Shown one piece after another: positions 9,754-31,616 of a stretch of 34,606 bases of DNA; within the stretch, counting starts at the first letter, position 1, and every line of letters starts with the position of its first letter. The notes under the pieces are model-generated. The model worked only from the letters and a program-made list of their open reading frames with translations. It had not been told where the DNA came from and searched no databases. The stretch is from an uncultured Bacteroidaceae bacterium (lineage in GTDB: Bacteria; Bacteroidota; Bacteroidia; Bacteroidales; Bacteroidaceae), in the NCBI GenBank assembly GCA_905235565.1, contig CAJOLR010000017.1, positions 1 through 34,606 on the forward strand, written 5' to 3'. The translations under genes were made by a program, and so were the position numbers.

Positions 9754-12700
9754 TCATCTTCTTTTCACAGCAAGCGCATCAATGGCAACTGTACCTGAAA
9801 TATTACTAATCTCAACAGTATGGTTGCCTCTTTTTTTGGCTTTGTACCTGAAAACCACCTGTTGGGCCTTATGGCTTTCTGAACCCCTGAGCGACACAGT
9901 ATGAGCATCGCCGTCAACACTCACTGTCATATCGCCCAGTTCCGGTCCTACAGGAGCTATCAGCTCTATGCTTTTACCATAGAATATGGTACGCCACACA
10001 TCACCCGCATTTGAGGATACATACAGGTCGTTGTTGTAATCGCCTTGAGACAGATTGCACCGGTGTTCCCATCCTATGGTCGTCACTCCGGGATCATCGT
10101 CGTTGAAAAGTACCTTATCATGTGTTATACGCAGGACTTTGAATCCGTTGGCGAGACGCTCATCGCTGATTTCCTCATACGGTTGAAGCTGTGTTCCGGC
10201 CGATAGGGAGAGCCCCGCATCGGTCTGTCTGAAACTGATGCGCGCCTTGGGTTGCCCTACCAGTTCCACCTTGCTCACCTTCCCTATTGTGGCCGAATTG
10301 GTTGAAAGAGCATCCAGATTCACCTCACTTCCGTCCCAACTGTACAGCATGGCATATATGTAACCTCCGTTCCGGGTATAGATTACATTGTCATTGCCCC
10401 ACGTCTCAAACGGGCGGGCGCCATAGACGGCATCAGCGTTGATCTTGAGCCAACGGCCTATATCCTGACATATCTGTCGGGCCTCCGGATCGATATTTCC
10501 GCCTGCACGCTGGGTTATATTGAGCAGCAGCGCCCCGTTGCGGGACACATTCTGCATAAGCCGGGTGATGATCTCATGCGCGGGACGGTATGGAACACCT
10601 TTCCTGTAATGCCACTCCTGAAGGCTCACCTCGGTCTGGAAAGGATATGCCATGATCTGGTCCTCAGTAAAGAACTCGGTGCTCTTAAGCAGGCTTCTAT
10701 CTACCAGCGGTAGCAGTTGGGGCGAATTCTGGAAACTGTCATAACGCCCGCCAACTCCCTTGAATGTGGCAACAACCTGATTCCTGCCATCTTCCCTCTT
10801 GGAGGCAATGTTGTAGAAATTCTCTATAATATACGGAGTGAGCTTTCCCAGTCCCATGTTGATTCCCAGATCTACCTGTGAATCGCCTGCATGGTCATCA
10901 AAATAGATCATGTCCGGCTGATACTTGCGTATGGCATCATCCACACGGTACATGAACTGAGTGGCAAAAGGCGTTTCCAGTGAGTTTCTCCCATCCCGAT
11001 GAATCGGCCCGTACAGGTCAACAGGGTCCAGTCCTTCCCACCATTTGCCTATGCCGTCAGCGGCAGTAAGGTTGGCATCGTATGGGATTCCGGCATTGGG
11101 GCCGTTACGGTCACTGCGGTAGCGAACGGTCATGAACTGACCGTAAGTACGTGCCGGAGTGGCGTGAAACCCTATTCCGAAAGGCATATCGTACTTGCGT
11201 GCGGTCTCTGCCCAGATACCCACCACATCCTTCTTGGGACCCACATTCACTGAGTTCCATGGCTGATACTTGCTGTCCCAGCAGTCATAGTTGTCATGAT
11301 GGTTGCCCATGGCCACGAAATATCCGGCTCCCATTTCCTTGTAAAGCTGCATCAGCTCATCAGGGTCCCATGCATCGATGTTCCAGTCACGGCACAGCTC
11401 CTTGTAGCCGTAAACCGATGGGTGTCCGTAATGCTCCAGGTGATATCGGTACTGCTCGCTGCCCTCCTGATACATGCCTCTGGAATACCAGTCACCATCC
11501 TCAGCCTGAGACTGCGGGTCCCAGTGCGACCATGCACCGAACTTGGCCTCCCGCCACCACTCAGGAACATTGTAGTAACGGCTAAGCGTGTCCCAGCTGG
11601 AAGTGTAAGCTCCCTCCTCGGGCTTGAACTCCGGCAGGTTCCAGAGAGTGTTGTCGTGGATTACAGGTACCGGGCCGCTGTAACTGATACGCCCGTCGGG
11701 ATTTATCACAATCTTTTCCAGCACAATCTCCGGATCCACCATCCAGACTTTAAGGGTATGGATTCCGGGATTATCAACGGTTATTTGAGTATCCAGCCAG
11801 CGCAGGTTGTCAAACACCTCGTCACGCATCTGTCCGTTGCCGTTGCGCAGAGGATAGTTATGCGCCTGGGGCAGAGGCTTCAGTACCTTGGAACGTGCCA
11901 GGTTCTGCCGGGTATATTCGCTGAACTCATCGTGAAGGCCCTGACGGGCGTCAATCACCATCGGATTACCGTCATCGACCGATACTGCAAGCCGGAGTCC
12001 TCTTGCCGGATTGACATCCTGAGTGGGCAGAATACCCAGACAGACGGTCTGGCTGCCGGTTTCATGCAGATATATGTCATACTCCAGATGAGGTGCCGAT
12101 TTGATTCCCTGAAGTGGTACCGACGGAGCATTGTTGGGCCATATTCCCATACAGCCTGCTCCACGGCCCAAATCCGGCAACAGTCTCCATGCTGCATCCC
12201 TGCCCGGGATGTTGGCGGCAGGCTTAAGTACATCCACACCATACTCACCTGCCATTGTCCCGAAATACGGTCTTGCTGCTGACGGCAATTGTCCGTTCAC
12301 CGCCTCCACCCTGATGGGTATTTCTGTGACTGAATCCTTCTGCCGTACGGTTATAAGTGCCTCAGAGCGTCCCATGGGTGCCTTGCTCCAGTCAATATGT
12401 ACCTTGATTTCAAAAGTGTTCATTTCGGATACACCTCCCTCCTTGGGTCCGTCAAACAGGACCCAGTCCTTATCTGCGGTTACGGTAAAATCAGCCGTCC
12501 CGGTTCCCCGGTTAAAGAGACGTATATAGTATTTCCGGTTTCCCATAGCGTCAAAGACCGGCAGTTGTGCCTGGGCCGCAATATCCCTTATTGAACGTCT
12601 CATCTCCCTACGGAGTCCGGTACCCTCAACAGCCTCTGTCTGGGGTTCAATCAATGGCCAGGCCTGTTCACTGCCCTCAACCTCCACAGCGAGTGAAGCG

Positions 12701-14706
12701 GTTTTCTGAGCCTTGACGTGATATAGAGTGGGCAGACGGTCCTCGTTGGGCATGGACCACTGGACATAACCTATATGTTTGTCGGACATCATGTTCTTCC
12801 ATTTTCCTCCTGCCAGAGTGTCGTTGTAATAATCGGACAGCTCCTTGTCCCTGTCAAACAGCCTTTTGACATGATCAGCCAGATTATTGGCAGCAGTATT
12901 GCCCTGAAGCGCATAGATATTGTTTTTCTGTGCCATAAGCCATATCTTGCCCACACCGGCCGATGCCACTGCCGGATAATAGACCAGTTCAAAGAAAGCA
13001 TCCGAGTATCGGTCCGGAATCAGCGGCTTGAGTGCTTCGGCCCGTTCCTGGACCTCATCCCACAGACGCATCTGCCGGTTAAGTTCATCGTAGTTATCGT
13101 AGCTGAAAATACCGGTACTCTGGACCTCGGGCTTTCGCATCAGGTTGAGTTTGGGATACCTCGATACTATCCAGGCTATCTCCTGGGCATGTTCCCTTCC
13201 GAAATTCTGCTCAGCCCATGAGAGAGTATAATCAAAAGTATCATCGGGCCCTATGGCATCAGGATCCCATGCATAGTGCATTATGAAGTCTATGGGCAGT
13301 TCCTTGGGTTTGAGGTCACCCACATTGATAATCCACAGGTCATCAATTCCTGTGCGGTATGCCAGACTTAACTGCTCGCGCAGTTTAGGTATTGTTGTGG
13401 TGTTTATCCAGCGGTCGTTCCAGGGCCCGCCGTTCATGTCTATATGATAGTACATTCCCAGTCCGCCCTTACGGTTAAGTTCCTTTTCAGGGCCGGTGCG
13501 GCGTATATAACCCCAATTGTTGTCACAAAACATGAGCAGGACATCGTCCGGACTGGTCATCCCTGATTCGTAATACCTCTGGACCTCGGTAAACAGGGCC
13601 CACATCTGCGGGACCTCACTCGCATCTTTTCCATAGACATCGCTTATTATGCTGCGCTGGTCACGTATCACGTCATAAAGCACCTGGGTGTTCTGCTCGT
13701 CATTGCCCTGACCCATAGGGACATCGCCGTCCCCGCGCATACCTATGGTAATCAGATTCTCAAACTTGCTGTTGCGCTCCAGTCCCTCACGCCAGAATTT
13801 CTTCAGATTGTCGGCATTGGTAACATAGTCCCATATCCCCACCTCTCTCTGACGACTGGTATATTCCTGCTGGGCACGCATCATTGGCTCATGATGCGAT
13901 GTACCCATAATCACTCCGTACTCATCGGCCAGGGCTGGGCTTCGGGGGTCATCCTCGTTGAATGCCTTACCCCACATGGCCGGCCACAGATAGTTGGCCT
14001 TGAGCCTGAGTATCAACTCGAACATGTGGGCGTACATCACGCTGTTCTGACCGTTCCGGGTTCCGTCCTCCTTGAACTTTGTGTCACTCCATCCGCTGAA
14101 CGAGGGACTCTCATCATTTATGAAAATACCGCGGTACCGTACCTTGGGCGATGGCTGGACATATCTCCCGGCCTTTACGGTAAGTACATCATGCTGCCGG
14201 GCAGGGACATCGGCCCACCAGTACCAGGGTGAAACACCTATCTTTTCAGATACGTCATATAATCCGTATATGGTGCCGCGTCTGTCACTGCCTGCAATTA
14301 CCAGACTGCCGTCAATGACCTCAATCACAAATGACTCCCGCTCACCGGCAATTCCTTCTACATCAAGTTTTCCTCTTTTAACAAGTCTGTCAATGACATT
14401 GCTGGATCCTATGGTTCCGGCTATCACACATCCTTTGGATGGCTTATCGGACGTTATTACCACTGCTGCGGTTCCCGTTACACGCTCCATATCCACGGCC
14501 AGGTCAGATGCAGCGCGTTTTACTCCCTTACAATCATTGTCCGATACTATGATGGAAGCGCTTTTACCGCCTTGAGCCAGCGTAAAATCACTCTTGCCAG
14601 CCTTGTCAAAACTGATGTATTCGCCCGGTGTCCAGGCTTTTGATGACAGTTGGGCACTGACAGTTCCACAGAATAACAGGAATACGCATGTTAGTCTTAA
14701 CTTCAT
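9754..14706 (-). CDS. Secreted GH115-GH29 fusion: predicted alpha-glucuronidase / alpha-L-fucosidase
   Basis: At 1650 residues this is about the sum of two normal enzymes. The ATG at 14706 gives a signal peptide, MKLRLTCVFLLFCGTVSA, with the mature end at QLSS; it appears to be periplasmic. Residues from about 20 to 1015 follow GH115 throughout: GTIYGLYDVSEKIGVSPWYW, RLKANYLWPAMWGKAFNEDD, MGTSHHEPMMRAQ, and the GH115_C region. From about 1045 a complete GH29-like fold begins (WWREAKFGAWSHWDP), with the likely nucleophile in MIYFDDHAGD (about residue 1269). A beta-rich, possibly carbohydrate-binding tail covers about 1560-1650. GH115 removes (4-O-methyl-)glucuronic acid from xylan or arabinogalactan, and GH29 removes alpha-L-fucose. 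There is no frameshift, and no SusC/D pair next to it. The activities are inferred; the GH29 half could have another alpha-galactosyl-type specificity. Confidence 0.88.
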   Translation of the reverse strand: MKLRLTCVFLLFCGTVSAQLSSKAWTPGEYISFDKAGKSDFTLAQGGKSASIIVSDNDCKGVKRAASDLAVDMERVTGTAAVVITSDKPSKGCVIAGTIGSSNVIDRLVKRGKLDVEGIAGERESFVIEVIDGSLVIAGSDRRGTIYGLYDVSEKIGVSPWYWWADVPARQHDVLTVKAGRYVQPSPKVRYRGIFINDESPSFSGWSDTKFKEDGTRNGQNSVMYAHMFELILRLKANYLWPAMWGKAFNEDDPRSPALADEYGVIMGTSHHEPMMRAQQEYTSRQREVGIWDYVTNADNLKKFWREGLERNSKFENLITIGMRGDGDVPMGQGNDEQNTQVLYDVIRDQRSIISDVYGKDASEVPQMWALFTEVQRYYESGMTSPDDVLLMFCDNNWGYIRRTGPEKELNRKGGLGMYYHIDMNGGPWNDRWINTTTIPKLREQLSLAYRTGIDDLWIINVGDLKPKELPIDFIMHYAWDPDAIGPDDTFDYTLSWAEQNFGREHAQEIAWIVSRYPKLNLMRKPEVQSTGIFSYDNYDELNRQMRLWDEVQERAEALKPLIPDRYSDAFFELVYYPAVASAGVGKIWLMAQKNNIYALQGNTAANNLADHVKRLFDRDKELSDYYNDTLAGGKWKNMMSDKHIGYVQWSMPNEDRLPTLYHVKAQKTASLAVEVEGSEQAWPLIEPQTEAVEGTGLRREMRRSIRDIAAQAQLPVFDAMGNRKYYIRLFNRGTGTADFTVTADKDWVLFDGPKEGGVSEMNTFEIKVHIDWSKAPMGRSEALITVRQKDSVTEIPIRVEAVNGQLPSAARPYFGTMAGEYGVDVLKPAANIPGRDAAWRLLPDLGRGAGCMGIWPNNAPSVPLQGIKSAPHLEYDIYLHETGSQTVCLGILPTQDVNPARGLRLAVSVDDGNPMVIDARQGLHDEFSEYTRQNLARSKVLKPLPQAHNYPLRNGNGQMRDEVFDNLRWLDTQITVDNPGIHTLKVWMVDPEIVLEKIVINPDGRISYSGPVPVIHDNTLWNLPEFKPEEGAYTSSWDTLSRYYNVPEWWREAKFGAWSHWDPQSQAEDGDWYSRGMYQEGSEQYRYHLEHYGHPSVYGYKELCRDWNIDAWDPDELMQLYKEMGAGYFVAMGNHHDNYDCWDSKYQPWNSVNVGPKKDVVGIWAETARKYDMPFGIGFHATPARTYGQFMTVRYRSDRNGPNAGIPYDANLTAADGIGKWWEGLDPVDLYGPIHRDGRNSLETPFATQFMYRVDDAIRKYQPDMIYFDDHAGDSQVDLGINMGLGKLTPYIIENFYNIASKREDGRNQVVATFKGVGGRYDSFQNSPQLLPLVDRSLLKSTEFFTEDQIMAYPFQTEVSLQEWHYRKGVPYRPAHEIITRLMQNVSRNGALLLNITQRAGGNIDPEARQICQDIGRWLKINADAVYGARPFETWGNDNVIYTRNGGYIYAMLYSWDGSEVNLDALSTNSATIGKVSKVELVGQPKARISFRQTDAGLSLSAGTQLQPYEEISDERLANGFKVLRITHDKVLFNDDDPGVTTIGWEHRCNLSQGDYNNDLYVSSNAGDVWRTIFYGKSIELIAPVGPELGDMTVSVDGDAHTVSLRGSESHKAQQVVFRYKAKKRGNHTVEISNISGTVAIDALAVKRR

Positions 14707-14739
14707 AATCAGAATATTTGCACAGTGAAACACCATTTA

Positions 14740-15867: not shown

Positions 15868-16605
15868 TTAATGTTTGCGGCTATGTAGGCCGCACTCACG
15901 TTTGTCGGGGTTCTCCCACCACCAGCGGCCGGCGCGGATGTCCTCGCCGGGGTTGATGGCACGGGTACAGGGCTGACACCCTATGCTGGGGTAGCCCTGC
16001 TCGTGCATCTTGTTGTAAGGCACATTGTTGGATTTGACGTAATCAATGACATCGGCCTCACTCCACAGCATGAGCGGATTGAGTTTGATCACGTCATCGG
16101 CGGTGTCGTATTCTATTATCTGCATGTCGGTGCGGGTTACGGACTGCGAGCGGCGGAGTCCTGTAATCCACACATCCACACCCTTGAGGGCGCGTTTAAG
16201 CGGTTCTATCTTGCGTATGTCACAGCACAGGTGGCGCAGCTCCACGCTGTCATAGAACAGGTTTATGCCGTGCTGGCGCACCATCTCCTGCACCTTGGCG
16301 TAATCCGGAAAGAACACCTCGATGCGGATTCCGTATCTGCGGTTGGTGCGGTCAATCAAGTCATATATCTGGGAGAACATACGGCCGGTATCCAGGGTGA
16401 AAATCCGGACACTGCCCTTAACCTGACGGGCAATCATGTCGGTCACGGCCTGGTCCTCATAACTGAGGCTGGTTGAGAGTGCGGCACGGAGGCCGAATGT
16501 CTCAACCGCCCACCTGACTGCTGTCTGGGCGCTCTCCAAGGCGCTCAGACCGGCCCACTCGGCATTCTTCTCTGCCACAAGGGCTATCTTCTGTTCCTTA
16601 GTCAT
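15868..16605 (-). CDS. cysH: Adenylylsulfate (APS) reductase
   Basis: This 245-residue cytosolic enzyme reduces activated sulfate to sulfite. It shows the PAPS-reductase fold (LSTSLSYEDQAV; IFTLDTGRMFSQIYDL) and the catalytic ECGLH near the C-terminus (Cys238). Two further cysteine pairs, Cys127-Cys128 and Cys210-x2-Cys213, are the four ligands of a [4Fe-4S] cluster. That marks the APS-using type rather than the PAPS-using type. This agrees with the absence of an APS kinase (cysC) in the cluster. Its ATG (16605) overlaps the end of cysN by 8 nt. It is the last gene of the sulfur operon. Confidence 0.94.
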   Translation of the reverse strand: MTKEQKIALVAEKNAEWAGLSALESAQTAVRWAVETFGLRAALSTSLSYEDQAVTDMIARQVKGSVRIFTLDTGRMFSQIYDLIDRTNRRYGIRIEVFFPDYAKVQEMVRQHGINLFYDSVELRHLCCDIRKIEPLKRALKGVDVWITGLRRSQSVTRTDMQIIEYDTADDVIKLNPLMLWSEADVIDYVKSNNVPYNKMHEQGYPSIGCQPCTRAINPGEDIRAGRWWWENPDKRECGLHSRKH

Positions 16606-17878
16606 AGCTCTCTACTATCATTCCGGCACCAACGGTGTCATTTGTCCCGTCAATAAATATCAGTGAACCCATGGTGCGGTTGTCGCGGTACGCATCAAAC
16701 ACAAGCGGAGCGGCGGTCTTAAAGTGCACGCGCGCAATGTCATTGGCCGTAAGCTGCTCGACACCATAGACTTTCTCCTGCCTGTCAATATCCAGCTTGT
16801 ACTCTATCTCCTTGACGATACCGGCCACCTCCTGCGTTGCGTGACGGATGGTGTAACGCTTGCCGCACACTAACGGTGATGTACGCAGCCAGCAGACATC
16901 CAGCACAAAGTCATTGCTCATGGAGGGCTTAACACCGCTGTCCGATGCAATCACGTCGCCGCGGCTTATGTCTATGTCATCCTTGACGGTGATGCAGACC
17001 GATTCGCCCGCAACCGCCTGCTCCTTCTGATTCTCGCCCAGCCAGATGCCGGTAACGGTGCTCTTTGAGCCCGATGGAAGCACCTCTATCCTGTCACCTA
17101 CACGGACAGCCCCCTGTGCTATGCGCCCGCCGTATCCCCTGAAATCGGGAAACTGCCTTGATATGGGTCTTATCACATACTGCACCGGGAAACGCATTCT
17201 GTCGGCATCACCGGCAGGAATCTCTATCTCCTCCAGCAGTTCCAGCAGTGACGGTCCATCGTACCATGACATACGCTCCGAGCGGGACACCACGTTGTCG
17301 CCGTCCTTGGCGCACATAGGTATGAATATCACATCATTGAACTCCAGTCCGTTTTTGTTTATCATAGCGGTGTAGGCGGCACTGATGTCATCAAACACCT
17401 TGCCGTCAAACTCCACCAGGTCCATCTTGTTCACGGCCACCACAACCTTGGGGATACGCAAGAGCGAAGCAATGCACGAGTGCCTTACCGTCTGCTCCAT
17501 TATCCCGTGACGGGCATCCACAAGTATCACAGCCAGATCAGCTGTCGATGCACCGGTAACCATGTTACGGGTATATTGGATATGTCCCGGAGTGTCAGCG
17601 ATTATGAACTTGCGCTTGGGTGTGGCAAAGTAACGGTATGCCACATCGATGGTTATGCCCTGCTCGCGCTCGGCACGCAGGCCGTCGGTAAGCAGCGCCA
17701 GGTTCACCTCCTCGTTGCCGCGGCTGCGCGAAGCCTCCTCGACAGCCTCCAGCTGATCCTCAAAAATTGACTTTGAATCATACAGCAGACGGCCTATGAG
17801 CGTACTCTTTCCATCATCCACACTGCCTGCTGTAGTGAACCTCAGCAGTTTCATCTCAAGATATCCATTGTTCTGCAT
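16598..17878 (-). CDS. cysN: Sulfate adenylyltransferase subunit 1 (GTPase)
   Basis: This 426-residue regulatory GTPase subunit of ATP sulfurylase drives APS formation by GTP hydrolysis. The P-loop GSVDDGKST is at 18-26, DTPGHIQYTRNM and VNKMDLVEFD follow, and the usual EF-Tu-like beta-barrel domains make up the rest. It ends without the C-terminal APS kinase domain seen in fused CysNC proteins. It lies between cysD (11 nt gap) and cysH (8 nt overlap), and CysD-CysN should form the usual complex. It looks intact. Confidence 0.96.
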   Translation of the reverse strand: MQNNGYLEMKLLRFTTAGSVDDGKSTLIGRLLYDSKSIFEDQLEAVEEASRSRGNEEVNLALLTDGLRAEREQGITIDVAYRYFATPKRKFIIADTPGHIQYTRNMVTGASTADLAVILVDARHGIMEQTVRHSCIASLLRIPKVVVAVNKMDLVEFDGKVFDDISAAYTAMINKNGLEFNDVIFIPMCAKDGDNVVSRSERMSWYDGPSLLELLEEIEIPAGDADRMRFPVQYVIRPISRQFPDFRGYGGRIAQGAVRVGDRIEVLPSGSKSTVTGIWLGENQKEQAVAGESVCITVKDDIDISRGDVIASDSGVKPSMSNDFVLDVCWLRTSPLVCGKRYTIRHATQEVAGIVKEIEYKLDIDRQEKVYGVEQLTANDIARVHFKTAAPLVFDAYRDNRTMGSLIFIDGTNDTVGAGMIVESYD

Positions 17879-17889
17879 AGTTAGAATTC

Positions 17890-18798
17890 TTAGAAGTAAC
17901 CCTGTTTCTTTCTGTCCTCCATTGCTGTCTCGGAGCGCTTGTCATCGGCACGTCCGCCACGCTCGGTGACGCGGGTGGATGCAATCTCGTCAATTATCTC
18001 CTCAAGTGAATGGGCGTGCGATAACGTAAGTCCCGTGCAGGTAACATCACCTATGGTACGGCAGCGCACCTCACGTTCCTCAACCACCTCCTCGGGACGG
18101 CGGGGTATAAAATCGGGATCGGCTGCAAGCCACTGCCCGTCGCGTAAGAAACACTTGCGAATATGCGTGTAGTACAGGCTGGGAAGCTCTATCGGCTCCT
18201 GATATATGTACTGCCAAACGTCCATCTCGGTCCAGTTGCTTATGGGGAATGCCCTGAAATGCTCTCCCGGCTCTTTCTTGGCGTTGAAAATGTTCCAGAG
18301 TTCCGGACGCTGGTTCTTGGGGTTCCACTGTCCGAACTCGTCACGGTGCGAGAATATGCGCTCCTTGGCACGTGCCTTCTCCTCATCACGGCGGGCACCT
18401 CCGCAGGCACAGTCAAACTTGTGCTCGGCCAGGGTGTCTAAAAGCGTCACGGTCTGCAGCTTGTTGCGGCTGGCGTTGAACCCCTTCTCCTCAACAACCT
18501 TACCCTCATCGATTGACTTCTGGACCGAACCCACCACCAGGTCGGCACCCAGACGTTTCACCAGATCATCACGATATACCAGTGTCTCGGGGAAATTATG
18601 TCCGGTATCTATATGTACAAGCGGAAACGGTATCCTGGACGGATAGAAGGCTTTGTATGCCAGATATGTGAGTACAATGGAGTCCTTGCCTCCCGAGAAC
18701 AGTATGCACGGTTTCTCAAACTGTGCGGCCACCTCTCTCAGTATGAATATGGACTCGGCCTCAAGTTCGTTTAAGTGAGTAAGCTGATTTGAACTCAT
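17890..18798 (-). CDS. cysD: Sulfate adenylyltransferase subunit 2
   Basis: This 302-residue catalytic subunit of ATP sulfurylase makes APS from sulfate and ATP. The ATG at 18798 gives MSSNQLTHLNELEAESIFIL, which lines up with known CysD starts, and the length equals the usual 302. A TTG at 18813 would overlap the pstB stop and is less likely. The PP-loop-type motif LFSGGKDSIV and the GARRDEEKARAKERIFS stretch are in place. It begins 11 nt after pstB, so the transporter and the activating enzyme are in one operon. Confidence 0.96.
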   Translation of the reverse strand: MSSNQLTHLNELEAESIFILREVAAQFEKPCILFSGGKDSIVLTYLAYKAFYPSRIPFPLVHIDTGHNFPETLVYRDDLVKRLGADLVVGSVQKSIDEGKVVEEKGFNASRNKLQTVTLLDTLAEHKFDCACGGARRDEEKARAKERIFSHRDEFGQWNPKNQRPELWNIFNAKKEPGEHFRAFPISNWTEMDVWQYIYQEPIELPSLYYTHIRKCFLRDGQWLAADPDFIPRRPEEVVEEREVRCRTIGDVTCTGLTLSHAHSLEEIIDEIASTRVTERGGRADDKRSETAMEDRKKQGYF

Positions 18799-18809
18799 AA
18801 TATTGTTAT

Positions 18810-19583
18810 TCAACTGAATAAACCTGAAAGATATCTCTTGGTAAGCTCATTTTGCGATGATTTGAACACCTGCGATGCAGGTCCCTCCTCGACCACCTCG
18901 CCCAGATAGAGGAACACCGCATAATCGGCTATGCGCAGAGCCTGCGGCAGAGTATGGGTTACCATGATGATGGTGTATTTCTCCTTGAGCCTTACAAACA
19001 GTTCCTCAATGGTCTTGCTCGATATGGGGTCAAGGGCGCTGGTAGCCTCATCGGCCAGAATGAAATCGGGCTCCACAGCAAGGCTGCGGGCCAGACACAG
19101 ACGCTGCTGCTGACCTATTGAAAGGCGGGCTGCCGGACGGCGCAGACGGTCCTTGACCTCATCCCAGAGGCCTACTTCACTCAGGTATTTCTCAACGGTC
19201 TCATCCATCTCCTGCTTACGACGGTGCATACCGTGGATACGGCATCCGTAGGCCACGTTGTCATAGATGGACATAGGCAGCGGGCACGGGCGCTGAGGCA
19301 CCAGGCCCACGTGACGGCGCAACTCTATCAGGTGCTCATCATCGGCTGTAACTATATCCTGACCGTCTATGAGCACACGGCCATCAATGTTGAACCCGTC
19401 GATATTCTCGGTCAGACGGTTAAGACAGCGCAGCAGCGTACTCTTGCCGCAGCCTGACGGACCTACTATGCAGGTTATCCTGTTGACCGGGAATGATACG
19501 TTTATGTTCTTCAGAATGGGCTGGCCCTCTATGGATACGTTGAGCTTGTCAACCACCAGCGATTCGGTAATTTTTTCAGTCAT
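18810..19583 (-). CDS. PstB-type ABC transporter ATPase (probable sulfate uptake)
   Basis: This is a 257-residue ATPase of the phosphate-transporter subfamily: Walker A GPSGCGKST (41-49) and the PstB-like PMSIYDNVAYG. It departs from standard PstB at spots that are nearly invariant. The signature reads LSIGQ (154-158) instead of LSGGQ, and Walker B runs into DEATSALD (178-185) where DEPTSALD is usual. The His loop (MVTH) is intact. It follows pstA by 5 nt and precedes cysD by 11 nt. The position inside a sulfate-reduction operon argues that it powers sulfate rather than phosphate uptake; that is an inference. I leave the symbol blank for that reason. Confidence 0.88.
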   Translation of the reverse strand: MTEKITESLVVDKLNVSIEGQPILKNINVSFPVNRITCIVGPSGCGKSTLLRCLNRLTENIDGFNIDGRVLIDGQDIVTADDEHLIELRRHVGLVPQRPCPLPMSIYDNVAYGCRIHGMHRRKQEMDETVEKYLSEVGLWDEVKDRLRRPAARLSIGQQQRLCLARSLAVEPDFILADEATSALDPISSKTIEELFVRLKEKYTIIMVTHTLPQALRIADYAVFLYLGEVVEEGPASQVFKSSQNELTKRYLSGLFS

Positions 19584-19588
19584 ATCGT

Positions 19589-20440
19589 TTATTTGTTAAG
19601 ACGGGTAATTCTGCGTGTAATAACTCTGCTTACTATGCTAAGTACCAGTACCAGTATGGTCAGCACCAGAGCGGCGGCGTATGCGCGGCCGGGAAACGGA
19701 TCGGGCATGCCTATCCAGTTGAATACTGCCAGCGGCAGCGTGGCGGTGGGGTCCGAAAGAGAACGTGCCGGCTGGTCGGAGAATCCTGCTGTGAACATTA
19801 CTGCGGCGGCATCGCCTATTGCCCTGCCCACTGCCAGCAGGAATGCTGTAAGCATACCCGGCAGGATATGCTTGAGCACCACCCACACTGTCTCCCATTT
19901 GGTTGCACCCAGTGAATATATGGCATCGACCATCTCATCGGGAACAGTCTTGGCTATCTCGTCACCTGAGCGTATCATCATGGGCACAATGAGCAGCACC
20001 GTAACCATGATACCGCCCAGGACCGATGCCCTCATGCCCACGCCCACCATAACCAGGAAGGCGAACGCGCCATAAACTATGGGAGGAATTCCGTACAGGA
20101 CATCGAATGCCAGACGGATTATGTACGATACTCCCGTGCGCCTGCGCTTGTACATTGTTATATAGAACACCACAGGAATACTGATGCACGCACCGATAAC
20201 CGCTGCCGGAACCACCACATAGAGCGATCCCAGGATGGCGTTCAGGAATCCGCCGTCGGGGGCTGTGTTCCACTCCTTGCCGGGGAACCTGGAGACCATA
20301 TCCCACGAGAGCGCCTTGCCGCCCCTTATCAGTATGGTACCCAGAATGCTTACAACCGCTCCAAGAACAACGAGAGTGGCAGCCAGCATCACGCCCCGCA
20401 TCACCTTCTCCTCTATCTGTCTTTTACGTATATGATTCAT
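19589..20440 (-). CDS. PstA-type ABC permease (probable sulfate uptake)
   Basis: This is a 283-residue inner-membrane permease with about six hydrophobic segments. The conserved cytoplasmic coupling loop reads DEMVDAIYSLGATKWETVW, and AVGRAIGDAAAVMFTAG matches the PstA region after it. It starts one base after the stop of the PstS-PstC fusion and ends 5 nt before the ATPase gene, so all three are tightly coupled. It should pair with the permease half of the fusion. Homology is to phosphate permeases, while the operon context points to sulfate. Confidence 0.9.
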   Translation of the reverse strand: MNHIRKRQIEEKVMRGVMLAATLVVLGAVVSILGTILIRGGKALSWDMVSRFPGKEWNTAPDGGFLNAILGSLYVVVPAAVIGACISIPVVFYITMYKRRRTGVSYIIRLAFDVLYGIPPIVYGAFAFLVMVGVGMRASVLGGIMVTVLLIVPMMIRSGDEIAKTVPDEMVDAIYSLGATKWETVWVVLKHILPGMLTAFLLAVGRAIGDAAAVMFTAGFSDQPARSLSDPTATLPLAVFNWIGMPDPFPGRAYAAALVLTILVLVLSIVSRVITRRITRLNK

Positions 20441-20441
20441 A

Positions 20442-22382
20442 TCAGCTGTTTTTCTCTATTCTGTAAAGGATTACACGTGACAATATGTTGAACAGCAGCA
20501 CCAGCAGGAGCAGCAGCAACGCGGCAAACATAATGGCCGACTCATACAGCGGGATTGATGCCATCTCTCCATAGTTATTGCCTATCAGGGCTGGCAGGGT
20601 GTAGAACGGATCCAGCAGCGAACCGCGCAGACGCGGCAGGCATCCGCACACCATCATCACCGCAATGGTCTCGCCGATGCATTTGGACAGAGCCAGCACC
20701 ACAGCCGCGAATATACCCGACAGGGATTTGCGCAGCACAACCTTGCGCGTGGTCTGCCAGCGTGTGGCACCAAGTGCGAATGATGACTCCCGCATATCGT
20801 CCGGCACGGTTGCGAAAATCTCGCAGAACAGGCTGACCATGATGGGCAGCACCATGACTCCCAGTACAAGCGATGCCGTAAGCAGCGAATAGCCTAATTT
20901 GGGAATAAGGGTAAGCACACCCCAGAGGCCGAAAATAACCGACGGCAGCGATGCCAGTATATCCAGAGCCGGATTGACTATCATCTTGAGGAAACGCGGT
21001 GCATACTCGGTAATGAACACCGCCGTAAGCAATGACAGCGGGAGCGAGAAACAGATGCTCAGCAATGTGACGGCCAGCGTACCGTGTATGAACGGTCTGA
21101 ATCCGAAGAGTCCCTGCGACGGTTTCCACTGCGTACCGGTAAGAAGCTCACCGAGAGTGCTCTTGTCAAACATCGGAGCCGCCTTACCCCACAAAGCGGC
21201 CAGCAACGCGACAAGCAGTGCAACTGATGAAAACGAAAGTATCACCATCATAGTCTCCGACATCCTCTGGCGGAAAACCCTTCGCTTGGAACGCGACGGA
21301 AGCAGGAACTGAATCCCGGCAGTCATGAACAGCAGCACCACGACAATACCGGCCAGCAGAGTTATCAGGCGTGTGTTGTCACGCCTCAGTCCTCCGCCTC
21401 TGCGCCCGACGTTCAGCTTACGCATTGACTCACGCGCCGATGCGTTCGATATGCGTACGTATCCGTTGGGCTCATTGAACTCCTGACCCTCGGATATCAC
21501 GAACTTGAGGAATTCCAGCGATGCCGTATCGGCCGGAACACCTTTTGTTACCAGATAGAGGTTGCGCGACGGAGGTGCCGGGAAACGTCCCTCCTCTATG
21601 GCTTTGGCAATACTGGAACGGGTGTCGTATAGTTTTTCATCGTCACTTACGCTTTTGTTCCCGTCAATGTCCAAGGGCAGGACTGAAAGACCTTCCTGCA
21701 TCTTAAGGGTCTCGGAATCATAGGCATACGCCATGTTGTTGAAACCTATGCCAAGCGGATCGTCTATAACCGCCTTGGATATTCCGGGATCACCGTAAAC
21801 TGCGGTACCTCCCAGATCCTCCTGCACGGCATCAAACCAGGCGGCAAACGTCTGGGCAGCACCACAGGCATCGGAGCGGGTATATACATGTATAGGGTTG
21901 TTATCGGTTGTACCCAGCAACTGCCCCCAAGTGGTATATTCTCCGGTTATCCATATCTTGTGGGCATCATCGGCGGTTATACCGTGAGCCAATATCTTAT
22001 CACGCAGCGGGTTTGATGAACTGAAAACCGGAAGTACCGCATCCTTGGCTACGGTAAAGTCAATTGCTCCTTTCTCACGCTCTTCATCATGCGGCTCGCG
22101 CGACAGCATGGCAAAATCAACCATTCCGTTAATAACATCGGTCATACCCTTGCCGGCCCCGCCCGATGAGAGGTCTATACGTACGGCCGGATGACGGGCC
22201 GAGAACTCGTTGGTCCACTCCACAGCCATCGGATAGAGTGCGAAAGCGCCTGATATCGAGATGCTTCCCTGAAGATTGTCAGTCCCAACATTATCCGTTT
22301 CGTTGTGTCGGCATGATGAAAAGAGCAGAAATACCGCCACGAGAGGCGTAAGGGCTTTCAGATTGCAATGATTAAAGTACAT
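20442..22382 (-). CDS. Fused PstS-like binding lipoprotein and PstC-type permease
   Basis: This 646-residue protein combines a binding protein and a permease that are normally separate. A lipobox, LLFSSC (Cys24), anchors the N-terminus. Residues from about 38 to 320 form a PstS-type binding domain (ISISGAFALYPM; IDLSSGGAGKGMTDVINGMV). A transmembrane permease of PstC type starts at about 335 and carries the coupling loop DDMRESSFALGATRWQTTRK. The position of the PstS aspartate that accepts a proton from phosphate appears to be Ser here (VDFAMLSREP). The usual SGT anion loop reads RSDACGAAQTF (169-179). Both changes are compatible with a different oxyanion such as sulfate, but my alignment is by eye. 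It heads the transporter-cys operon behind its own promoter. Confidence 0.87.
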   Translation of the reverse strand: MYFNHCNLKALTPLVAVFLLFSSCRHNETDNVGTDNLQGSISISGAFALYPMAVEWTNEFSARHPAVRIDLSSGGAGKGMTDVINGMVDFAMLSREPHDEEREKGAIDFTVAKDAVLPVFSSSNPLRDKILAHGITADDAHKIWITGEYTTWGQLLGTTDNNPIHVYTRSDACGAAQTFAAWFDAVQEDLGGTAVYGDPGISKAVIDDPLGIGFNNMAYAYDSETLKMQEGLSVLPLDIDGNKSVSDDEKLYDTRSSIAKAIEEGRFPAPPSRNLYLVTKGVPADTASLEFLKFVISEGQEFNEPNGYVRISNASARESMRKLNVGRRGGGLRRDNTRLITLLAGIVVVLLFMTAGIQFLLPSRSKRRVFRQRMSETMMVILSFSSVALLVALLAALWGKAAPMFDKSTLGELLTGTQWKPSQGLFGFRPFIHGTLAVTLLSICFSLPLSLLTAVFITEYAPRFLKMIVNPALDILASLPSVIFGLWGVLTLIPKLGYSLLTASLVLGVMVLPIMVSLFCEIFATVPDDMRESSFALGATRWQTTRKVVLRKSLSGIFAAVVLALSKCIGETIAVMMVCGCLPRLRGSLLDPFYTLPALIGNNYGEMASIPLYESAIMFAALLLLLLVLLFNILSRVILYRIEKNS

Positions 22383-22387
22383 AAAGT

Positions 22388-22438
22388 TAGTGTAGTATTG
22401 CGGAGTGCAAAACTACACTATTATGATGTACTATCAAA
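22388..22438 (-). promoter_or_regulatory. Promoter and 9-bp inverted-repeat operator of the Pst-Cys operon
   Basis: On the minus strand TTTG (22438-22435), 19 nt, then TAGTTTTG (22415-22408) exactly match the Bacteroidota promoter pattern. A perfect inverted repeat TAGTGTAGT (22388-22396) / ACTACACTA (22412-22420) with a 15-nt spacer overlaps the -7 box and the expected start site. This is ideally placed for repression, most simply by the Rrf2 protein encoded immediately upstream. Confidence 0.75.
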
Positions 22439-22443
22439 GAAAA

Positions 22444-22854
22444 TCAAGCAAAATCTTCCAGGGTACGTGCAGAAAGATTGTCGTAAATAATCTGTTGGAT
22501 ATCACCGAACATATCCCTGATGCGGCATTTTTCCCTATCAAGACCGAACTCGCACTCAAACGAGTTTCCGCATATATCAATACAGGATATCATTCCCACC
22601 TTCTCGCCCATGGCCAGGATAACGTCAAGCACCTTGATTTCACGCGGCGGTCTGGCAAGACGGTAACCGCCGCTGACTCCCCGCTCGCTGACAAGCATAC
22701 CATCATTGCGCAACTGAAGGAAAATACCCTCCAGAAAACGGATAGGCACATTCTGTTCTTCCGAAATCCGGCTCATTGGAACTGCCGCCTGACCATATTC
22801 CCTGGCCAGTATTGTCAGAGCCATGATAGCGTATCGTGTCTTGCGTGATAACAT
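22444..22854 (-). CDS. Rrf2-family transcriptional regulator
   Basis: This 136-residue DNA-binding protein starts MLSRKTRYAIMALTILA, typical of Rrf2. The winged helix includes VPIRFLEGIFLQLRNDGML and the wing GVSGGYRLAR. Four cysteines follow (Cys91, Cys95, Cys101, Cys110) in the region where IscR-type members bind an Fe-S cluster, although the spacing differs from IscR. Rrf2 proteins include CymR, the cysteine-metabolism repressor of Bacillus, which uses a cysteine synthase partner. It ends 6 nt before the -33 box of the Pst-Cys promoter and is read in the same direction. Its own promoter may use TAACTTTA (22886-22879). I infer that it controls sulfur assimilation through the inverted repeat at 22388-22420. 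Confidence 0.9.
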   Translation of the reverse strand: MLSRKTRYAIMALTILAREYGQAAVPMSRISEEQNVPIRFLEGIFLQLRNDGMLVSERGVSGGYRLARPPREIKVLDVILAMGEKVGMISCIDICGNSFECEFGLDREKCRIRDMFGDIQQIIYDNLSARTLEDFA

Positions 22855-22910: not shown

Positions 22911-22918
22911 TAATTTTG
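22911..22918 (+). promoter_or_regulatory. Likely promoter of the TonB-receptor operon, -7 element
   Basis: TAATTTTG on the plus strand fits TAnnTTTG and lies 58 nt before the receptor ATG. A T-run at 22890-22897 occupies the -33 region without a clear TTTG. Confidence 0.5.
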
Positions 22919-22975
22919 CAGGCTGTTTACAAAGAAAGGTTAAGTAGTAACAACACACGGTTATCCCGAATAGGA

Positions 22976-24988
22976 ATGAACAGAATTATCAGGATAATTA
23001 TACTTCTTGCTCTTTTGCCGCAGACACTGATTGTTAAGGGGCAGGAAGACACCATATACTTTACTATACCTGAGGTTACTCTCATCGGTCACCGCAATCT
23101 TTCGGCCATAAGCGGCACGATGGCTTCAGGGCTGCGTATTGACGCAAAGCTCATGGAGACATATCCCAAGATGTTCGGCTATACGGACCCCATGCTCTAC
23201 CTCCAGTCTCTGCCCGGGGTATCGACCAACTCCGAACAATCGAGCGGTCTGCATGTGCAGGGCGGAGAATCATCACACAACATCATTACCGTGTCCGGTA
23301 TTCCGGTCTACGGCAACATGAACTTTACCGGTCTGTTCTCCCTTTTCAACCAGGACCATCTGCCCAAGGTAGAGTTCAGCACCTCAGACCGGATGCCTCA
23401 CATCGGTGCCTGTCTGGCGCTTGACCACGCTGACACCATACCGGCACGGCTGTCCGGAACCGCGACTCTTGGGCTCATCTCCGGACAGGGCACGCTGCAC
23501 GCTCCTCTGTCGGCCGGCACATACCTGACACTGTCTGCCAGACGCTCATTCATCAACGCCATTTACGGACCGATGCTTGAGTTTGACGGCAGCCCTTTCA
23601 GATATGGGTTCACCGATGCCAATTTCACTCTGTTTCACCGCATAGACTCACGCAATACTATAGACCTCAATGCATTATGGAGTCATGATGTAGGAAGTAC
23701 CACATACGGTATTGCAAAGATTGACATGAATGTCCACTGGGGCAACACACTGGCATCACTCCGATGGAGACATCAGGACAAGACTGTCAGATCAAAGACA
23801 TCACTCTTTATTTCAAGATACAACTTCCAGGGCGATATACGTAATGAACTTATTAACGGCAATATAAATGCACATATAACCAATGCCGGAGTAAGTACCG
23901 CCATCAACCTGCCGCACAATTTAAACCTTGATGCCGACCTTAGCCTGTTCCAAATACTGCCTCAGGATCCGCACATAACTGACAATAAGGTAATAATGTC
24001 CTCCCAGGTTGCCCAGAAGTCATTTCTGGGCAACCTGGCGCTCAACCGCCAGTTCAAAGCAGGTAGAAACTGGAATTTTATTCCGCACCTGCTCCTGTCC
24101 GCATACAATGTGAACGAAGGATATGAGTGCGTCAACCTGGATCCTGCGCTTACAATAGGACTCAACCTGTACAGATACGGTTCGTTCACAGCCGAGTCCG
24201 GCATCAAGCACCAGTATCTGAGCCAGACAGGCATGACAAGTGCAGGGCTGCCTAACGAATTCTGGCTATCCGCAGGCCGCTATTTCAAGCCCCAGCAGTC
24301 GGTTTTCGGAACCCTGACATATGACTTGGATTTCAAACAGTCCATGTATTCGCTTTCGGTCCAGTTATACGGCAAGCTGCTTGCCAACCAGCTCGAATAT
24401 ACCGGATTCCTGTTTGACCTTCTCACCCGTCCGTACAGGCTTGAGGACAATCTGCTGATATGTTCGGGATATAATTACGGCATAAACCTGATGATTGCCA
24501 AGCAGGCCGGCAAGGTAACCGGATGGATTAGTTACTCATACGGCCAGTCTATCCGAAGGGGTGACGGGGAGCTGTTCCCCACCTGTTTCCACTCATCCCA
24601 CGAGCGGGCGCATGAACTCAACGCTGTCCTGTCATATAAGATCGGCAAGTTTGACCTGGGAGGCAACCTGACCATGGCATCGGGTAATCCATATACCCCG
24701 GCCAAGAACCTCTATCTGCTTTCCAACTCACTGTTCATCTATTATGATGACTACAATTCTGCCCGGCTTCCCATGTATATGCGCCTGGACCTTTCTGCCA
24801 CATACAACCTGCCACGCCGCCGCAACCTGGACCAGAGCATCAACCTGTCGGTATACAACGCCACAGCCCACAATAACTACAACATGGGATACATAAGGGC
24901 CGATGAGGACGAGATGACCATACGCTACAAACTGGCAAAACTTGTAATCCCTGTGATACCCTCAATAAGTTATTCTTGCAGATTCTGA
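22976..24988 (+). CDS. TonB-dependent outer-membrane receptor (short form)
   Basis: This 670-residue outer-membrane protein starts at the ATG at 22976, giving a signal peptide (MNRIIRIIILLALLPQTLIV) and a mature end near KGQ. The plug domain is clear: MLYLQSLPGVSTNSEQSSGL, VQGGESSHNIITVSGIPVYG. The rest alternates polar and aromatic residues like a beta-barrel and ends in an aromatic residue (SYSCRF). It lacks the N-terminal carboxypeptidase-like domain of SusC-type receptors and is shorter than them. The next gene, one base away, is a DUF4249-like lipoprotein, the usual companion of this subgroup. The ligand is unknown; the neighbours do not include polysaccharide-degrading enzymes. Confidence 0.88.
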   Translation: MNRIIRIIILLALLPQTLIVKGQEDTIYFTIPEVTLIGHRNLSAISGTMASGLRIDAKLMETYPKMFGYTDPMLYLQSLPGVSTNSEQSSGLHVQGGESSHNIITVSGIPVYGNMNFTGLFSLFNQDHLPKVEFSTSDRMPHIGACLALDHADTIPARLSGTATLGLISGQGTLHAPLSAGTYLTLSARRSFINAIYGPMLEFDGSPFRYGFTDANFTLFHRIDSRNTIDLNALWSHDVGSTTYGIAKIDMNVHWGNTLASLRWRHQDKTVRSKTSLFISRYNFQGDIRNELINGNINAHITNAGVSTAINLPHNLNLDADLSLFQILPQDPHITDNKVIMSSQVAQKSFLGNLALNRQFKAGRNWNFIPHLLLSAYNVNEGYECVNLDPALTIGLNLYRYGSFTAESGIKHQYLSQTGMTSAGLPNEFWLSAGRYFKPQQSVFGTLTYDLDFKQSMYSLSVQLYGKLLANQLEYTGFLFDLLTRPYRLEDNLLICSGYNYGINLMIAKQAGKVTGWISYSYGQSIRRGDGELFPTCFHSSHERAHELNAVLSYKIGKFDLGGNLTMASGNPYTPAKNLYLLSNSLFIYYDDYNSARLPMYMRLDLSATYNLPRRRNLDQSINLSVYNATAHNNYNMGYIRADEDEMTIRYKLAKLVIPVIPSISYSCRF

Positions 24989-25838: not shown

Positions 25839-28670
25839 ATGAGCGACAACAATTCCATAATAGTTAAGGGAGCAAGGGTCAACAACCTCAAGAACGTCAG
25901 TGTGGAGATACCGCACGATAAGTTCGTAGTCATAACCGGCCTGTCCGGGTCGGGCAAGTCATCACTTGCTTTCGATACGCTGTATGCTGAGGGCCAGCGC
26001 CGTTATGTGGAGTCGCTGTCATCTTACGCACGTCAGTTCCTGGGCCGTATGAAAAAGCCGGAGTGCGATTTCATTGAAGGCCTGCCGCCTACAATCGCCA
26101 TCGAGCAGCGCTCAGGCAACCGCAATCCGCGTTCAACCGTAGGTACGCAGACTGAGATTTACGAGTATCTTAAGTTGCTTTTTGCACGTATCGGCCACAC
26201 CATATCGCCTGTCAGCGGCAAGGAGGTGCGCAAGCACAGTGTTGAGGATGTGGTCTGTTTCATGCAATCACAGCCCAAGGGTGTTCGCTTTACTGTTCTG
26301 GCGCCGATGCTCATGCGCGGAGGACGGGGTCTGGAGGAGCAGCTGCGCACATCGCTCAAGGAAGGATTCACCCGCATTGAGTATAAATCCGGGATAATAC
26401 GTATTGAGGACCTGCTCAGCGACAGCAAGCAACTGACAGAACTCTCCAAGCACACCAAGGAGATTTACCTGCTCATTGACCGCCTCACCACCGATGACTC
26501 CAAGGAGACCCTGAGCCGGTTCACTGACTCCGTGGAGACCGCGTTCTTTGAGGGAGGCGGCGAATGTGCGCTGCGTTTTTACGATACCCCTGATACATCA
26601 CTCCACAAGTTCAGCAACCGCTTTGAGGCCGACGGCATCAAGTTTGAGGAACCTACCGACAACCTGTTCTCGTTCAACTCGCCCGTAGGGGCGTGTCCCA
26701 AGTGCGAGGGATTCGGACGTATTATCGGCATTGACGAGTCACTGGTAATACCTAACCGTGCTCTGAGCGTTTATGACGGTGCGGTGGTTTGCTGGCGCGG
26801 TGACGTGATGACCGGATGGAAGGATGACTTTATCCTTCACGCACAGGAACACGATTTCCCCATATTCACACCATATTACCAGCTTACACAGGAGCAGAAG
26901 GATTACCTGTGGCACGGAAGCGGTCGCGGCCGTGACGAGCGCGGATGGGAGGAGACCTGCATAGACACATTCTTCCGTATGCTGGAGAAGAGCCAGTACA
27001 AGATACAGTACCGTGTGATGCTGGCCCGATACCGCGGCAAGACCATCTGCCCCGATTGTCACGGGACACGCCTGCGTAAGGAGGCCGGTTATGTCCAGGT
27101 GGGCGGCAAATCCATCAACCAGCTGGTTGAGATGCCCATATCGGAGCTCAAGAAATACTTTGACAACCTTAAGCTTCCCGAGCATGAGGCCAAGGCGGCC
27201 AAGCGTCTGCTCATAGAGATAAACAGCCGCATTCAGTTTATGCTGGATGTTGGTCTGGAGTATCTCACACTTAACCGTGCGTCGGCCACGCTTTCGGGTG
27301 GCGAGAGCCAGCGCATAAACCTGGTCACATCACTTGGCAGCTGCCTTATGGGATCTCTATATGTATTGGACGAGCCCAGCATCGGCCTGCACAGCCGTGA
27401 TACCGACAAGCTCATCAAGGTGCTGCGCCAACTGCAGGAGATAGGCAATACCGTTGTAGTGGTTGAGCATGACGAGGAGATTATCCGTGCATCGGACTAT
27501 ATCATCGATGTAGGTCCCGAGGCAGGACGCCACGGCGGTGAGATAATCTATCAGGGGCCAACCGGCCAGCTTGAAAAGAATTCCGGAAGCTTGACCGTAA
27601 AATACCTGACCGGCGAGGAGTGCATACATGTGCCTGAGTCACGCCGCCCGTGGAACAATTATATAAAGGTGGTTGGGGCGCGCCAGAACAATCTGGACGG
27701 CATTGACGTAAAGTTCCCGCTCAATGTGATGACCGTTGTAACCGGCGTGAGCGGATCGGGCAAGAGCACTCTGGTGCGCGATGTGCTGTACCGGCACCTC
27801 AAGAATATATACAGCGAATCAACCGAACGTCCGGGCGAGTGCATGGGAATCGAGGGTGATACCGGAATGGTACGCGCCGTGGAGTTCGTGGATCAGGACC
27901 CCATAGGCAAGACCACCCGCTCCAACCCCGTTACCTACGTAAAGGCTTACGATGAGATACGCAAACTGTTTGCCGACCAGCCGCTGTCACACCAGATGGG
28001 TTATCGGCCAACACATTTCTCATTCAACTCCGAGGGCGGACGCTGCGAGGAGTGCAAGGGTGAGGGAATTGTAACCGTTTCCATGCAGTTCATGTCGGAC
28101 CTGCAGATGGTATGCGAGAGCTGCCACGGCCGCCGTTTCAAGAACGATGTGCTGGAGGTAACATATAAGGGCAGGAACATCTGGGAGATACTTGAGATGA
28201 CAGTAAACCAGGCCGTTGAATTCTTCTCGGCCGATGATGCCGCCGAGCGCCGCATTGTCAGGAAACTGGAGCCGCTGCGTCAGGTAGGCTTGGGTTATGT
28301 AAAACTGGGACAGTCATCATCCACCCTCTCCGGCGGTGAGAGCCAGCGCGTGAAACTGGCCTATTTCCTGAGTCTTGAAAAGGCCGATCCCACCATATTC
28401 ATATTCGATGAGCCTACCACCGGCCTGCACTTCCACGATATCCGCAAACTGCTGGAGTCATTCGACGCCCTGATACGCCGCGGCCACACCGTAATAATAA
28501 TAGAGCACAACATGGACGTGATCAAATGCGCCGACCACGTCATCGACCTGGGTCCCGAAGGCGGCGGGCGTGGCGGCCACCTGGTAGTGTGCGGCACCCC
28601 CGAGGATGTCGCCGCCTGCCCCGCATCCTACACCGGCCGTTTCCTCAAGTCCAAACTCAAAAAAAATTGA
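25839..28670 (+). CDS. uvrA: Excinuclease ABC subunit A
   Basis: This 943-residue damage-recognition ATPase of nucleotide excision repair has the normal UvrA layout. There are two ABC modules with Walker [10 protein letters not shown] (34-42) and GVSGSGKST (about 637), and two signature motifs reading LSGGESQR. The zinc modules [17 protein letters not shown] and [17 protein letters not shown] are all present. A run of AGAAGG precedes the ATG at 25839. It lies 21 nt behind the DUF4249 gene, an ordinary chance neighbour. The first half is normal and no residue is missing. Confidence 0.97.
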
Positions 28671-30758: not shown

Positions 30759-31616
30759 ATGCTTTCTTTGGCCGACAATTATCATTGGGACAACGAAAAC
30801 GTAAACGCCGCCTCCCGCTTTGAAAACATCATCTCCCGGAACCAATTCCCCCTTTATCCGGACATCTTTTCCATCGTCATCTGCCGGTCAGGAAGCATCT
30901 CGCTCACGTCAGGAGGAGTACGACTGTCTTCCGGTCCCAGGAATGCGATAGTCACACTTGGAGGACAACCGATAGATGCCGTGGAAATGACACCGGACTG
31001 TAGACTCCTTTTTTTTGCAGGGAAAAGCAAATACTTCAATACAAAGATTGACCTGGACGATGCAAACCGTTTTCTCCGCCTGGCCCTGGAAATCAAGCAT
31101 CCTTTCCTTTTCCCACTTACCCAAAGTGAGTTCCGCGCTATGGAGAAACTATATTTCTCGGCCAAAGAACTGCTCCTGATGGTTCCCGAGAAATCGAAAG
31201 GTGGGATTGCCGCAGGATATGCCCGCATCCTTTCCACCATCATTTTCGCAAAATTACAGAACCAGGGACAGCGGATAGAAGAGGAGGCACAGACGGCAAA
31301 CAGAAACCTGCTGGTGTCTTTCCTGGAAAATGTCAAGCGGAACTGCCGCCATGAACGCGGGATAGCATTCTACAGCAGTTTTGCCAACCTGACACCAAAG
31401 TATTTCTCAAAACAGATCAAGTTCATTTCCGGCAAGTCTCCAGGGGCCATAATCCAGGAGTACACCATGGCTGAGGCCAGGGCCATCCTTTCAAGCAAGA
31501 AATACACAGTCAAAGAAGTCAGTAACCTGATGAACTTCTCCTCACCTTCCAGTTTCTGCAAATACTTCAAATCCGGCCAAGGCCTTTCACCGGGAAAGTA
31601 TATGGAGCGTATATAG
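30759..31616 (+). CDS. AraC-family transcriptional regulator
   Basis: This 285-residue regulator has a C-terminal AraC DNA-binding domain of about 95 residues. The first helix-turn-helix lies around FANLTPKYFSKQIKFISGKS and the second around TVKEVSNLMNFSSPSSFCKYF, ending SPGKYMERI. The N-terminal 170 residues form a cupin-like sensor (FSIVICRSGSISLTSGGVRL) with no recognisable ligand site. It reads towards the PheC-like lipoprotein 265 nt downstream and may regulate it, but the sequence does not show this. Its base use is more AT-rich than that of uvrA. Confidence 0.9.
   Translation: MLSLADNYHWDNENVNAASRFENIISRNQFPLYPDIFSIVICRSGSISLTSGGVRLSSGPRNAIVTLGGQPIDAVEMTPDCRLLFFAGKSKYFNTKIDLDDANRFLRLALEIKHPFLFPLTQSEFRAMEKLYFSAKELLLMVPEKSKGGIAAGYARILSTIIFAKLQNQGQRIEEEAQTANRNLLVSFLENVKRNCRHERGIAFYSSFANLTPKYFSKQIKFISGKSPGAIIQEYTMAEARAILSSKKYTVKEVSNLMNFSSPSSFCKYFKSGQGLSPGKYMERI

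Follow-up and report, generated by a model that had tools for sequence, protein, structure and literature searches.

A contig of 34,606 nt from an uncultured Bacteroidaceae bacterium (CAJOLR010000017.1, assembly GCA_905235565.1; the whole contig is referred to as the window) carries a Pst-type ATP-binding cassette (ABC) importer in one run of genes with the sulfate-activating enzymes CysD and CysN and the reductase CysH, behind a regulator of the Rrf2 family. Transporters of this type are usually labelled as phosphate uptake systems, and the locus therefore raises the question of which substrate is imported here. The original prediction, made from the sequence of the window, was that the system imports sulfate. 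The comparative analysis supports this proposal: based on recurrent linkage with sulfate genes, co-inheritance with CysD, an altered phosphate site and the lack of PhoU, the Pst-type importer of the operon is, in all likelihood, a dedicated sulfate importer. The assembly, 2.2 Mb in size and 91% complete, contains the window as one of its contigs. The closest named relatives of the binding domain are found in metagenome-assembled genomes of Bacteroidales and Bacteroidaceae (92% identity), and the order is accordingly taken to be Bacteroidales.

The predicted series of seven closely spaced genes on the same (minus) strand is borne out by the open reading frames (ORFs) and by family models, as each gene is identified by both Pfam and NCBIfam. 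The Rrf2-family regulator (22444..22854, 136 aa) matches PF02082 with 107.3 bits and scores above the cut-off of TIGR00738. At a distance of 61 nt it is followed by a PstS-PstC fusion (20442..22382, 646 aa; PF12849 105.4 bits, PF00528 57.4 bits) that reaches 226.6 bits with the PstC model TIGR02138 (cut-off 196.45). The PstA-like permease (19589..20440) remains slightly below the cut-off of TIGR00974 (192.3 vs. 193.45 bits) and the PstB-like ATPase (18810..19583) below that of TIGR00972 (314.1 vs. 343.2 bits). Together with the PstS_2 model (TIGR02136, 108.5 bits, cut-off 206.6), this leaves PstC as the only Pst subunit that exceeds its NCBIfam cut-off. The small and large subunits of sulfate adenylyltransferase are encoded by CysD (17890..18813; TIGR02039, 402.6 bits, cut-off 396.6) and CysN (16598..17878, 426 aa; TIGR02034, 540.6 bits, cut-off 336.1); CysN is also recognised by Pfam, which gives no match to an adenosine 5'-phosphosulfate (APS) kinase domain in it. 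CysH (15868..16605; TIGR02055, 261.4 bits, cut-off 235.3) is of the assimilatory APS reductase type, with cysteines 127, 128, 210 and 213 forming the CC...CxxC motif that is also found in 56 of 57 linked CysH proteins. From the transporter on, the genes are separated by 1, 5, 11 and 11 nt, followed by an 8-nt overlap of CysN and CysH. The 11-nt gap between PstB and CysD applies to the alternative ATG start of CysD at 18798; with the TTG start of the ORF, the two genes overlap by 4 nt.

To place the transporter among its relatives, named genomes were scanned with an alignment of 8 sequences. At least 485 relatives were found, and the best 80 were kept as loci, some of which are cut by contig ends. 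In the PstC tree, the clade of the window protein (112 rows) forms one side of a branch with 14 rows from phosphate-type loci on the other (support 100/99); four of these 14 group apart as PstA-like and were retained in the tree. A single sub-clade with support 100/100 comprises 13 rows, all of them fused. An even sample comprised 198 genomes of the order, each at least 90% complete. With a membership threshold of at least 398 bits (next match 303), it contains 75 clade members in 73 genomes. In a sample of 296 genomes from the phylum, nine pass an E-value of 1e-70, namely the window's genome and eight that belong to other orders or classes. Outside the order, some relatives score 380-395 bits, so the score gap is not clean beyond the order. 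A third class of relatives was also seen in many genomes: ORFs of mostly about 560-600 aa that score about 90 to 186 bits and contain the binding domain plus a further part. In the window's own genome, contig C29 encodes a lone PstS-like protein without a Pfam match (L032:8199-9074), with a SusC/SusD-like pair and a TonB-receptor-like gene (assigned by eye) downstream.

The linkage with sulfate genes recurs throughout these relatives. Among the best 80 loci, CysD is present in 52, CysN in 51, CysH in 52, Rrf2 in 12 and the fusion of the periplasmic binding protein (PBP) with PstC in 9. The order PBP-PstC-PstA-PstB-CysD-CysN-CysH occurs many times in this set, mostly with PBP and PstC unfused, and is not confined to one strain. 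Preceded by Rrf2, the same order is found in four loci (L053, L054, L055 and L058) despite differing upstream flanks. In Odoribacter laneus (L113), CysH is the next gene after PstB. In a genome from another family (G042), the transporter and CysH form one run with a gene that resembles cysteine synthase by eye, and Rrf2, CysN and CysD are on the opposite strand. Outside the order, the transporter of one locus (L180) is divergent from Sir-, siroheme-, CysH-, CysD- and CysN-like genes, and an Rrf2-like gene lies nearby in five of the eight out-of-order relatives from the phylum sample. Since the block is also present in other families, and in a divergent arrangement in a different order of the same class, it is not a chance assembly.

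Further genes accompany the transporter in some of the loci. Siroheme genes and NIR_SIR-TusA are present in a few transporter operons. Rrf2 is found in 15 of 120 loci. In 41 of the 120, the gene immediately upstream on the same strand belongs to a single gene cluster; the two members of this cluster run through Pfam (from L061 and L054) are Porin_O_P proteins. Among close relatives of the window, the upstream flanks vary. Divergently from Rrf2, the window (22916-24988) and L040 encode a receptor-like protein, L041 and L054 Porin_O_P, and L039 another membrane protein; given this variation of the divergent neighbour, the block behaves as a cassette. In a further locus (L153), the transporter operon is directly followed by a gene for a PBP_like_2 protein (11378-12310) beside a TonB-type gene, and a PLP enzyme of Cys/Met metabolism is encoded upstream.

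Transporter and sulfate activation are also inherited together. In the even sample, CysD is present in 70 of the 73 carriers of the clade, compared with 68 of the 125 non-carriers (Fisher p 7e-11, shared ancestry ignored); one of these 138 CysD genomes (G082) scores below the CysD family cut-off. Within the genus, the fused transporter is found in 6 of 37 genomes, many of them incomplete, and CysD in exactly the same six.

The binding domain itself departs from the phosphate type. It spans residues 1 to about 330 of the fusion and carries a lipobox-like sequence, FSSC24, whose cysteine is kept in at least 90% of the sequences of sets A2 and A3. A strict lipobox pattern is matched by 4 of 10 fused proteins, and the domain is probably lipid-anchored. 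According to hydropathy, it is joined to PstC by an additional hydrophobic stretch (339-357) plus a basic linker ahead of the first PstC helix, as in nine other fused proteins examined, which means that the binding domain can remain outside. The passages describing the phosphate site of CpPstS give seven contacts, six via the side-chain hydroxyls of S32, S33, T34, T61, S83 and T175, and one via G174 (PMC12421899). Equated by loop motif, these correspond to A46, F47, A48, A76, S94, A175 and G174 of the window protein; five of the six phosphate-binding hydroxyls are replaced and one serine, S94, is retained. Among 132 sequences of the clade, counting near-duplicates, A48, A76, K78, S94, R169, D171, A172, A175 and N216 are invariant, and A46, F47 and G174 occur in 131. 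Ten phosphate-type PstS proteins, by comparison, all have S or T at position 76 and T at position 175, and at positions 46-48 they carry mostly S, D or T, with A at 46 and F at 48 in three of them. Serine 94 (7/10), arginine 169 (8/10) and glycine 174 (10/10) are common to both types. Since the search for relatives had used two peptide motifs from the pocket loops, the count was repeated on a motif-independent set: in 49 members found by profile alone, the signature at positions 46, 47, 48, 76, 78, 94, 169, 174, 175 and 216 is present in 48 or 49, and position 173 is a cysteine in 39. Clade differences are also seen in the channel motifs of PstC and PstA. The position of Asp56 of E. coli PstS had been considered as a further criterion of specificity and was dropped, because seven of the ten phosphate-type PstS proteins of the order have a serine there as well.

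The phosphate-type proteins derive from ten Pst loci (L042-L051, 9.5-17 kb each) that were labelled as such by sequence. PhoU accompanies nine of these loci, in eight of them beside PstB according to Pfam and in L043 according to BLAST; in L042 it was found by neither method. In contrast, a BLAST search with the phosphate-type PhoU proteins yields no PhoU-like ORF in any of 137 clade loci (of unequal lengths, near-duplicates included), and none is present among the ORFs and Pfam matches of the window operon. Conversely, CysD, CysN and CysH occur in none of the ten phosphate-type loci. L042 (G035:C54) is located in a same-genus genome that lacks CysD; its pst cluster has a match to Na/Pi cotransporters and a gene resembling response regulators nearby.

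In the mechanism proposed here, the ancestor would have been a phosphate-type PstSCAB system. Its pocket would have kept an arginine, one serine and a glycine loop and lost five of the six phosphate-holding side-chain hydroxyls, with an invariant lysine and an NN pair as new features. The binding domain, fused to PstC in the window by an added membrane helix, would capture periplasmic sulfate and pass it to the PstC/PstA channel, with PstB driving the transport. CysD and CysN would then turn sulfate into APS, which CysH would reduce to sulfite.

Repression of the operon is probably exerted by the Rrf2 protein, whose gene lies immediately upstream, via an inverted repeat, TAGTGTAGT-N15-ACTACACTA (22388..22420), the proposed operator. 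It overlaps a promoter-like element, TTTG-N19-TAGTTTTGC (22407..22438, minus strand), which agrees with the -33/-7 consensus of Bacteroides promoters. With the distance to the start codon unchanged and no more than 3 mismatches in the 18 arm positions, the repeat is found in 5 of 12 fused relatives (L038, L039, L040, L041 and L055), and the arms of L055 are perfect among themselves. It is absent from the other seven by the same test; L037 has a looser form by eye. The repeat is the only match in its own genome at up to one mismatch. Among six genomes, the operator pattern occurs once in that of the window (G000), once in G009, twice in G023 and not in G007, G027 and G033. A control pattern likewise finds sites (two in G000, one in G023, two in G027 and one in G033), and the rarity of the repeat therefore proves little. 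Scans for sigma-70 promoters (15 sites vs. 7.1 expected) and terminators (3 vs. 6.4 expected) were uninformative; one weak sigma-70 site (22447-22420) overlaps the upstream part of the proposed promoter.

As to the signal, the regulator had been predicted to be a cysteine-responsive repressor, an assignment that the family models do not support. Like CymR and IscR, it belongs to the Rrf2 family, but it falls below the cut-offs of both the CymR model NF047409 (61.1 vs. 195 bits) and the IscR model TIGR02010 (78.7 vs. 207.55 bits). Three cysteines, C91, C101 and C110, are conserved in all 16 aligned linked Rrf2 proteins (window included) and hint at a sensor of the Fe-S or thiol type. IscR has three cysteines as well; those of the window protein are spaced C-x9-C-x8-C.

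Several observations weigh against sulfate as the substrate. The main weakness comes from the even sample, where just 10 of 75 clade members have CysD within 12 kb; two of the members far from CysD have CysH alone (L134 and L140; the neighbourhoods of 40, plus four more, were inspected). Three of the 73 carriers have no CysD at all. The PstC part still scores above the cut-off of a phosphate equivalog. The contacts of CpPstS were equated with window positions by loop motif, its sequence not being part of the alignment. The top 40 fold matches of the structural model (mean pLDDT 87) are phosphate-binding proteins, so specificity is not readable from the fold. The genome encodes one SulP protein outside the window (C8:44584-45684; models for CysPTWA, DASS and CysZ were not searched genome-wide). 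Finally, siroheme sulfite reductase (NIR_SIR, PF01077) was found in none of nine genomes, comprising that of the window (91% complete) and eight of the same genus, five of them fused carriers. The pathway as seen thus ends at sulfite, and the operon, originally described as complete from uptake through activation to reduction, reaches sulfite only.

Other explanations of the locus were weighed as well; these and sulfate import are not strictly exclusive of one another. Instead of mainly sulfate, the importer might carry a different oxyanion of sulfur (thiosulfate, sulfite or an organosulfonate) or a range of oxyanions that includes molybdate. The side-chain changes show only a loss of phosphate contacts, and many stand-alone members of the clade could have another substrate. 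However, the genes most commonly linked, CysD, CysN and CysH, act on sulfate itself, and the distribution within the genus tracks CysD exactly, which makes this alternative unlikely.

The search for other sulfate transporters in the window covered 18 of its 20 non-overlapping ORFs of at least 150 aa with Pfam, leaving out 25839-28670 (UvrA by eye) and 30759-31616. No SulP, CysPTWA or CysZ protein is found among them. To this extent, the original statement that the window holds no other sulfate transporter stands; it needs to be qualified by a 191-aa half-size Chromate_transp protein of the CHR family (308-883) and by the SulP gene elsewhere in the genome. The window also encodes a 1660-aa protein (9754-14736) in which a GH115 part (with GH115_C) is fused to an alpha-L-fucosidase part (PF01120). 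If SulP were the real sulfate importer, the Pst-type system would be auxiliary or decayed. In favor of this, SulP is present not only in the window's genome but in 32 of the 37 same-genus genomes. Across the even sample, however, it shows no association with CysD (64 of 138 genomes with CysD vs. 35 of 60 without, p 0.16, again with shared ancestry ignored), a fused carrier that is 97% complete (G007) has no SulP match, and the Pst-type reading frames of the window are all intact. SulP was rejected as the explanation and is very improbable in this role.

An ordinary phosphate importer that happens to lie beside the cys genes, perhaps balancing the phosphate and pyrophosphate from sulfate activation, would agree with the overall homology to PstSCAB and with the absence of any further Pst permease from the window's genome, for which an additional Pst copy of the phosphate type had been expected, but it was rejected as the main explanation and is hardly credible, as it disagrees with the clade-wide loss of phosphate-binding hydroxyls, with PhoU and cys linkage in clade and phosphate-type loci, and with the genomic profile, in which three of four unfused carriers (G041, G056 and G058) keep a separate phosphate-type Pst and the window's genome has two genes of the Na/Pi-cotransporter family. 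These two genes could serve phosphate in the window's genome, where PiT was not found.

If sulfate is the substrate, the system would function in the manner of a sulfate ABC importer, and by descent it is a member of the Pst family. With PstSCAB it shares homologous subunits, the fold and the order PstS-C-A-B. It differs in the pocket, in the lack of PhoU, in its linkage to CysDNH and Rrf2, and in the PstS-PstC fusion of one sub-clade. CysPTWA/Sbp (SulT) would resemble it in having a periplasmic binding protein, two permease subunits, one ATPase and sulfate as substrate, but the CysT and CysW models give the PstC part only 36.5 and 22.6 bits (cut-offs 246.1 and 329.1). A precedent for a phosphate transporter family that has turned to sulfate is CysP of Bacillus subtilis, which works as a single permease; it differs as a membrane carrier without a binding protein. 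CysP belongs to the PiT family and is described as a sulfate permease that has lost phosphate-critical residues (PMC5840216). This comparative study of sulfate transporters names SulP, CysP (PiT), DASS and CysZ/TSUP, and the term 'Pst' is absent from its main text. A recently described non-classical importer is the TauE-family sulfate uptake transporter of P. fluorescens, a homologue of which is reported to lie with sulfate-assimilation genes (PMC11535334); its family is unrelated to the Pst-type system. Searches of open-licence PMC papers found no Pst-type sulfate importer (subscription papers and preprints were outside the scope).

A wider reading, for and against which the balance is about even, would make the whole of this Pst clade in Bacteroidota, which family models annotate as phosphate importers, a dedicated sulfate uptake system that arose by loss of the phosphate-binding pocket hydroxyls. 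The transporters would often be equipped with their own outer-membrane channel of the Porin_O_P type and, in some lineages, with a three-cysteine Rrf2 repressor. In the lineage of the window, the pathway from APS to sulfite would operate without siroheme sulfite reductase, and sulfite would either be reduced by an unrecognised enzyme or enter sulfonated products.

If sulfate import holds true, the Pst-type transporters of the clade, carried by 73 of the 198 genomes in the even sample, would be misnamed as phosphate importers. The first step of sulfate assimilation would then be known for many Bacteroidales, and another family of phosphate importers would have turned to sulfate beside the PiT-family CysP. 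The residue signature A46, F47, A48, A76, K78, A175 and N216 would be usable for the re-annotation of genomes and could be tested by single mutants.

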